Of a stretch of DNA of 64,000 bases, positions 26,542 to 28,422 are shown piece after piece. Location: NCBI RefSeq assembly GCF_003860125.1, contig NZ_RQYL01000007.1:1-64000 (forward strand), read 5' to 3'. The notes under the pieces are model-generated. The model was given only the letters and a program-made list of their open reading frames with translations. It was not told where the DNA came from and did no database searches. Numbering within the stretch: the first letter of the stretch is position 1; the number at the start of each line of letters is the position of its first letter. This DNA comes from Fretibacterium sp. OH1220_COT-178 (GTDB lineage Bacteria; Synergistota; Synergistia; Synergistales; Aminobacteriaceae). Position numbers and translations under genes: made by a program.

Positions 26542-27465
26542 ATGTCCCAAAACGTCCCCGGCCTCTCCATCCGCGCCCTTCTTGCAATCCTGCTTCTGTG
26601 CGCCCCTTCGTGCCTGCCCGATCCGGCCCAGGCGCGTGAGGTCAAGGTCGTCATCGATTACGACTACAACGACGCCCGGGACTTCCATGAAGGGCTCGCC
26701 GCCGTAAAATCCAACGATGCATGGGGGTACATCGACCACCTCGGGCGCATGGTCATTCCCTTCGTCCATCGGGTTCCCGAGGCAGGGTCCTTTTCGGAGG
26801 GGCTCGCCTTCGTCGGAGACCGTTTCATCGACGCCTCCGGCAGGGAGGCGTTCGATGAAAGGACCTTCCAGGACGCAAAATCCTTCTCTCAAGGGCTCGC
26901 GGCGGTTAAGAGCCATGGGCGGTGGGGATATATCGATACGGCCGGAAAGTTCGTCATTCCCCCCAGCTACGAGGCGGCGGGCCCCTTCTCTCAGGGGCTG
27001 GCCCCGGTGCGCAAGGACGGACTCTGGGGCTACATCGACATCGGCGGGCGCATGAAGATCCCCCCACAATACCTCAGGGCGGCTCCCTTCCACGAGGGCC
27101 GGGCCGCGGTGGAGATGCGGGGCCTGTCCGGCTACATCGACCTCTCCGGCAGAGACCTCGTCAAAGCATCGTTCGACGAGGCGGGCCCGTTCGGCAACGG
27201 GCTGGCTCCGGTCAGGAACGCCTCGGACTATCGGGGCTGGGGGTACGTCGATTCCAGGGGGCGGCTCTCCATCCCCCATCGCTACAACGCCGCCGGCCCG
27301 TTCCGGGAGGGGCTGGCCCCCGTCGCCACCGACGCGCGATGGGGGTACATCGATACTCTGGGACGGCTCGTCCTGGACGCGCAGTTCGATGAAGCTCGTC
27401 CATTCCATGAAGGGCTCGCCGCCGTGAGGCTCGAGGACAGGTGGGGATACATCAGCGTACGATAG
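26542..27465 (+). CDS. exported WG-repeat protein
   Basis: 307 aa. The N-terminus has a signal peptide (IRALLAILLLCAPSCLPD, cut probably after AQA near residue 31; lipidation at Cys is possible but the box is poor). The rest consists of about eight beta-rich WG repeats of roughly 33-36 residues, each with the form F.EGLA.V...WGYID..G...IP. One repeat lacks the WGYID strand. Such repeats bind proteins or surfaces; no enzyme motif is present. The ATG at 26542 is preceded by GGAAGG. The last 69 bases of the gene are duplicated 190 bp downstream. Periodic coding gives long antisense frames here, which I ignore. Confidence 0.85.
   Translation: MSQNVPGLSIRALLAILLLCAPSCLPDPAQAREVKVVIDYDYNDARDFHEGLAAVKSNDAWGYIDHLGRMVIPFVHRVPEAGSFSEGLAFVGDRFIDASGREAFDERTFQDAKSFSQGLAAVKSHGRWGYIDTAGKFVIPPSYEAAGPFSQGLAPVRKDGLWGYIDIGGRMKIPPQYLRAAPFHEGRAAVEMRGLSGYIDLSGRDLVKASFDEAGPFGNGLAPVRNASDYRGWGYVDSRGRLSIPHRYNAAGPFREGLAPVATDARWGYIDTLGRLVLDAQFDEARPFHEGLAAVRLEDRWGYISVR
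27387..27455 (+). repeat. 69-bp direct duplicate, copy A
   Basis: The 3' end of the WG-repeat gene (27387-27455) is repeated at 27578-27646 with only two differences, both T to C. The two copies flank a palindromic element. Confidence 0.9.
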
Positions 27466-27514
27466 CGGCCTCACGCGGCCCTTTCATCGGCCTCCAGACA
27501 AGCCCCGGTCAAGC

Positions 27515-27577
27515 CGCTTAAGCGATCTGCTCCGCTCGCCTGCGGCTGCGCCTCGGCTCCCGGGCAGCCTGCTTATA
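27515..27577. repeat. palindromic element, copy 1 (TAAGC...GCTTA)
   Basis: Starts TAAGCGATC at 27519 and ends GCCTGCTTAT at 27567-27576. Outer arms TAAGC (27519-27523) and GCTTA (27571-27575) pair, and CTGCTC (27527-27532) pairs with GGGCAG (27562-27567). The interior is highly GC-rich and self-complementary. The same two terminal sequences occur in the leader near 32702-32759. No coding potential. Confidence 0.65.
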
Positions 27578-27646
27578 CGATGAAGCTCGTCCATTCCACG
27601 AAGGGCCCGCCGCCGTGAGGCTCGAGGACAGGTGGGGATACATCAG
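27578..27646 (+). pseudogene. 69-bp duplicate, copy B (WG gene 3' fragment)
   Basis: Second copy of the end of the WG-repeat gene, 67 of 69 bases identical to 27387-27455. It has no start or ribosome site. Its last bases supply the stop codon of the yqeB-like gene on the other strand (TGA, complement of 27643-27645), so the duplication junction falls exactly at the end of that gene. Confidence 0.85.
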
Positions 27647-28422
27647 CCGAGGGCGACGGCAAATACCGCCTCCAGGACACCGCCCCCCACCGAGAGGGCC
27701 TTGTCCGAGATGGAGAAGCAGTGGGACCGCACCGCGCGTGGATCGATGTCGCCGATCTTCATGCCCGTCCGCACGGGAACCGTCGGGTGGATCAGGCCGC
27801 GCAGCACCCCGCCGATCCTGGCGAGCACCGGCTTATCGTTCACGAACCCCAAGACCTGCCCGGCCTCGACGAGATCGCCGATCTCGGCTCGAGGCACCAT
27901 CAGGCCGTCGTCCGGCGCACGAACCAGGCGATCCGTCGTGGCGCCGCCGATCTCCCCCGGCACCCCCGTGTCGGGAGCCGCCTCCCCCCTGACGATGACG
28001 CGCCCCAGATCGTGACCGCGCAGCGTCTCCACCACCGCATGAACGTCCCGTGGAGCACGAAATCCCGGACCGACCCCAATGACGCGCGGCGCCATATCAC
28101 GGCTCGTTCCGACGTTGCGCTTGGCCATGATGGCGTCGATCAATACGTCGGGGTGCAGATCCGCCAGACATTCCCCCTGCGGGTCCACCAGAACCCCGAC
28201 CGTCCCGTCGCCGGGGAGCTCCCGCGCCGAGCCGAGCCGGCGCGCCGGCATCCCCTCGACGACATGCTCCCCGTCGAACACCGCCTGAGCCACGGAAACC
28301 GGACGGCGAATGACCATGGGACGCGCCGTCTCGAGCACCAGCAGCCTGAAGCCCGTCCGCCACAACCTGTAGATTATCCCCGTGGCAAGATCGCCCCCGC
28401 CGCGCACCACCGCCAAACCCAT
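27643..28422 (-). CDS. yqeB: YqeB-type selenium-dependent molybdenum hydroxylase accessory protein
   Basis: 259 aa. The opening GLAVVRGGGDLATGIIYRLW is the hallmark of the EF2563/YqeB family, which accompanies selenium-dependent molybdenum hydroxylases and is thought to serve cofactor maturation. Further on come VGVLVDPQGE, VGPGFRAPRDVHAVVET and VHPTVPVR-like IHPTVPVRTGMKIGDIDPR. The ATG at 28422 has AAGGGG at 7 bases; the extra 31 codons upstream are not conserved in character. It is divergent from the xanthine-dehydrogenase-type genes, which fits. The stop codon comes from a recent 69-bp duplication, so the native C-terminus may have been shortened by a few residues. Confidence 0.85.
   Translation of the reverse strand: MGLAVVRGGGDLATGIIYRLWRTGFRLLVLETARPMVIRRPVSVAQAVFDGEHVVEGMPARRLGSARELPGDGTVGVLVDPQGECLADLHPDVLIDAIMAKRNVGTSRDMAPRVIGVGPGFRAPRDVHAVVETLRGHDLGRVIVRGEAAPDTGVPGEIGGATTDRLVRAPDDGLMVPRAEIGDLVEAGQVLGFVNDKPVLARIGGVLRGLIHPTVPVRTGMKIGDIDPRAVRSHCFSISDKALSVGGGVLEAVFAVALG

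Follow-up and report, generated by a model that had tools for sequence, protein, structure and literature searches.

In the 64-kb stretch of DNA from Fretibacterium sp. OH1220_COT-178 analysed here (the window), a 70-nt segment from the 3′ end of a WG-repeat protein gene (copy A) recurs a short distance downstream (copy B), where it abuts the last codon of the convergent gene yqeB and harbors the yqeB stop codon (Table 1). With somewhat better than even confidence we hold copy B to be filler DNA that was copied from the nearby WG 3′ end at a local rearrangement, probably by replication template switching or by microhomology-primed repair. The mechanism of template switching and the course of events are what we infer: a local rearrangement would have set yqeB tail-to-tail with the WG-repeat gene, with 70 nt of the WG 3′ end copied as filler into the new WG-yqeB junction. 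An earlier note on this DNA had proposed a recent rearrangement, and a fairly recent local event where two convergent genes end is upheld by our analysis.

Table 1. Features at the junction of the WG-repeat gene and yqeB (positions count from the first nucleotide of the window)
Feature	Position	Strand	Description
WG-repeat protein gene	26542–27465	+	307 aa, ending in ...WGYISVR-TAG; carries copy A; PF14903 WG_beta_rep
Copy A	27387–27456	+	Last WG repeat, native; homologues end in the same repeat
Spacer	27457–27577		121 nt; unique, without family and without significant structure
TACGAT, left	27458–27463	+	Just past copy A; may form a 6-bp microhomology, or else a target duplication, with 27576–27581
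Perfect 10-bp palindrome CGCTTAAGCG	27515–27524		Within the spacer; ordinary for the window
TACGAT, right	27576–27581	+	Spans the left edge of copy B
Copy B	27578–27647	+	Probable 70-nt relic of copy A (68/70), off the 102-bp repeat phase, with two C bases that look derived
yqeB	27643–28422	−	259 aa; selenium-dependent molybdenum cofactor biosynthesis protein; stop within copy B; TIGR03309

The earlier note had described a 69-bp duplicate with two T-to-C changes, which is borne out except that the true length is 70 nt, one longer; it had put 122 bp between the copies, where 121 nt are measured. The two copies are 97% identical and offset by 191 bp start-to-start, and both mismatches (27408/27599 and 27416/27607) are T in copy A and C in copy B. 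In the same scans the remaining WG repeats of the gene were found to be about 60–77% alike among themselves and spaced 102–111 bp apart, which shows that the A/B pair is not a normal repeat of the array. An in-frame expansion of the WG repeats is rejected because whole 102-bp periods do not add up to the spacing of 191 bp and because copy B is followed by yqeB sequence.

In about 451 kb of sampled sequence, composed of the 64-kb window and 20 stretches from the same genome, the pair was the only one of its kind apart from four classes of close direct repeats, namely tRNA genes, a paralogous pair of 89–90% identity, a minisatellite of 24 bp and, where one contig ends, a tandem of 87 bp. With no comparable pair in the sample, the A/B repeat is real, not a product of chance, and out of the ordinary for the genome as sampled. 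The paralogous pair (stretch L099, 7479–8122 and 8365–9011) consists of segments about 890 bp apart that are 89–90% identical over 341 and 291 nt and are likely to represent a tandem gene duplication, and the minisatellite (stretch L101, 4467–4531) has the unit CCCTCGGCCCTTCCCTTCGCTTCA. The tandem occupies the last 168 bases of contig C5 (stretch L106, 8816–8983) with two copies of an 87-bp unit, of which the second is present for 81 bp, identical, up to the contig end; the unit holds inverted repeats such as CCACAAGGCTGTAAGCCTTGTGG, and the tandem reflects either a repeated element or an effect of the assembly at the contig edge.

The product of the WG-repeat gene matches PF14903 in seven stretches (E 8.4e-82; 269.2 bits, the curated cut-off being 25.6), and thus belongs to this family with several repeat matches above the cut-off. 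Its C-terminus is in register with those of its homologues, 14 of which end within a few residues of the last WGYI motif, just as WGYISVR-TAG does; copy A is the native C-terminus and copy B a fragment. The stop codon of most homologues is TGA, here it is TAG. Both substitutions look derived in copy B: the second changes a Leu codon (CTC in copy A) to CCC for Pro where 14/14 homologues have Leu or Met, and at the first the T of copy A recurs in the gene's first WG repeat, which has 23 identical nt in common with copy A. Derived changes in copy B fit the expectation for an unconstrained relic, and copy B is probably functionless, a remnant that happens to carry the stop codon of yqeB. The 23 nt common to the first and the last WG repeat (26683–26705 and 27403–27425), which are otherwise about 60–77% alike, may perhaps reflect gene conversion inside the WG array.

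YqeB matches TIGR03309 over almost its full length (profile positions 2–255 of 256) with 336.9 bits, well above the curated cut-off of 220. The claim of the earlier note that copy B supplies the TGA stop of this minus-strand gene was confirmed, the complementary TCA lying at 27643–27645. The event is indeed located at the ends of two genes, as the note had it, but both genes are complete and neither was found to be affected in the sense of damage. A comparison of YqeB C-termini with those of homologues, suggested at the same time, revealed no abnormal end: past the conserved GGVLEA motif the tail is 7 residues long, and relatives with a readable tail have 4–41. A damaged yqeB is rejected on the TIGR03309 match and the ordinary tail length, and nothing in either sequence shows damage to the two genes or points to harm or altered function in yqeB.

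The genome groups with Fretibacterium and other Synergistaceae, and the genomes used for comparison are those of other genera of the family. The best relatives of the WG protein are from Fretibacterium fastidiosum and from Synergistaceae MAGs, the closest sharing 63% protein identity. A yqeB gene was found near none of 16 WG loci of relatives (flanks up to 3 kb), and a WG-repeat gene near none of 29 yqeB loci (flanks up to 1.5 kb). Six relatives have matches to both; the two genes are about 2 Mb apart in the single-contig genome of F. fastidiosum and on separate contigs in the rest. The adjacency of the WG-repeat gene and yqeB, being absent at all loci found in relatives, appears to be lineage-specific, and from these relatives we infer that the junction would be new. 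Copy B sits exactly on the yqeB side of this junction. In several Synergistaceae (loci L005, L010 and L013) a short gap separates the WG gene from a DnaJ/CbpA-like gene that it faces, and in others (L033 and L034) it has a different 3′ neighbour; the 3′ neighbour of the WG gene, which differs among Synergistaceae loci, is thus unstable.

The arrangement is that expected of template switching: a templated copy of a sequence 191 bp away that abuts yqeB. At the left edge of copy B there is a candidate microhomology of a few base pairs, the CGAT with which copy A begins recurring inside the TACGAT at 27458; a match of this kind has a chance of about 4% of arising by luck, and it concerns the left switch point only. 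In Escherichia coli, complex rearrangement junctions with microhomology have been attributed to repeated template switching, and the same work names junctional insertions of nearby sequence as a hallmark of non-recurrent events of this type (PMC3161906), for which the MMBIR model has been put forward (PMC2621351). The junction described here resembles those of the E. coli Lac system and of MMBIR (PMC3161906, PMC2621351) in that a short neighbouring sequence lies copied at what would be a new junction, with a candidate microhomology of a few bases and without a mobile element; it differs from them in that those were fresh events with kb-scale amplicons, whereas here a single fossil event of 70 bp is seen. 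End joining dependent on Ku is unlikely, since no match to the Ku family was found in the genome.

What counts against the filler model is that a simple tandem duplication, with the second spacer deleted afterwards, yields the identical present sequence. Close direct repeats arise by tandem duplication or slippage, and the chief alternative here is a tandem duplication that underwent further change, which we regard as possible but less likely. Either a unit of 191 bp (copy A plus spacer) would have been duplicated by slippage and the second spacer lost, or a unit of 73 bp between two CGAT(GA) sites would have been duplicated and about 118 bp later inserted at TACGAT. The copies are direct, of high identity and less than 1 kb apart, as in repeats of this origin, but they are split by an unrelated 121-nt spacer of which there is no second copy. 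For the 73-bp version it speaks that TACGAT recurs precisely at each spacer edge and that deleting the DNA between the two hexamers restores the 307-aa WG protein with the same C-terminus and the end ISVR-TGA, TGA being the stop codon of most homologues. This join hints at a tandem duplication of 73 bp and a subsequent insertion. The 6-bp match itself, however, weighs little because of the chance of about 4% given above; moreover, two or three events are required in one place, and the spacer is neither a known insert nor bounded by visible terminal inverted repeats. No match came from literature searches on close direct repeats of this origin or on 3′-end duplications at breakpoints.

An assembly artefact, in which the repeat was created by joining two local alleles or contigs with overlapping ends, is improbable. 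The genome is a draft of 105 contigs, one of which ends in the exact 87-bp tandem mentioned above, maybe by an edge effect of the assembly; the locus, however, is interior to an 83-kb contig and the spacer is unique sequence. In addition, the Leu-to-Pro change in copy B is unlikely for a functional allele, and an allele in which copy A was fused directly to yqeB would lack the WG stop.

The layout of repeat, spacer and repeat in direct orientation could also suggest that a mobile element of palindromic type, such as a MITE, a REP or a cassette-like unit, had inserted with a target duplication of 69–70 bp, which we consider very improbable. Direct repeats on both sides of a stretch of DNA are indeed seen in transposon target-site duplications, but 70 bp is far too long for one, there is no recognised element, and the collapsed site makes no credible ancestor. 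When copies A and B are collapsed to a single one, the WG frame loses its stop and continues for 112 codons (419 instead of 307 aa) antisense through yqeB, a protein to which no homologue is alike. The collapsed site is thus not a plausible empty site, and since the homologues end soon after the last WGYI motif, a 69-bp target duplication is disfavoured.

The spacer itself has little to offer as an element. The TAAGC...GCTTA arms on which the earlier note had based its palindrome are present (27519–27523 and 27571–27575), but they lend no support to a palindromic element, five-bp inverted repeats in the spacer being at chance level (11, where shuffling gives 7.0 on average and 15% of the shuffles reach as many). 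The perfect 10-bp palindrome is one of 88 in the window, where about 62 are expected. No significant RNA fold or hairpin was found, the + strand folding no better than shuffles (z = +0.22) and the − strand weakly (z = −1.05), and there are no significant terminal inverted repeats. The spacer has no second copy in the same genome, nothing comparable in 82 other genomes of the family (one weak 24-nt match only), no match among plasmids and phages, and none in an Rfam search; a terminator scan of the intergenic region revealed no site. Being single-copy and free of significant inverted repeats or hairpin, the spacer does not show the marks of a mobile element such as a MITE or REP. The palindromic element of the earlier note is not supported by a spacer without unusual structure, Rfam match, second copy or relatives in the 82 family genomes, plasmids or phages.

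We find it hardly credible that the 70-bp direct repeats serve as a recombination switch in which deletion between copies A and B (191 bp) toggles the WG C-terminus from 307 to 419 aa; if true, the 3′ end of the 419-aa form would overlap yqeB, and the shared 3′ region would be toggled too.

The repeat is best read as a commonplace scar from a small rearrangement of DNA, formed by a known process, with no function indicated and no new element. Copied filler, which remains our preferred origin for copy B, would make the locus a small, clean example of a stop codon supplied to a gene by duplicated filler DNA with neither gene evidently harmed. It also cautions that direct repeats together with a weak palindrome should not be taken for a transposon.
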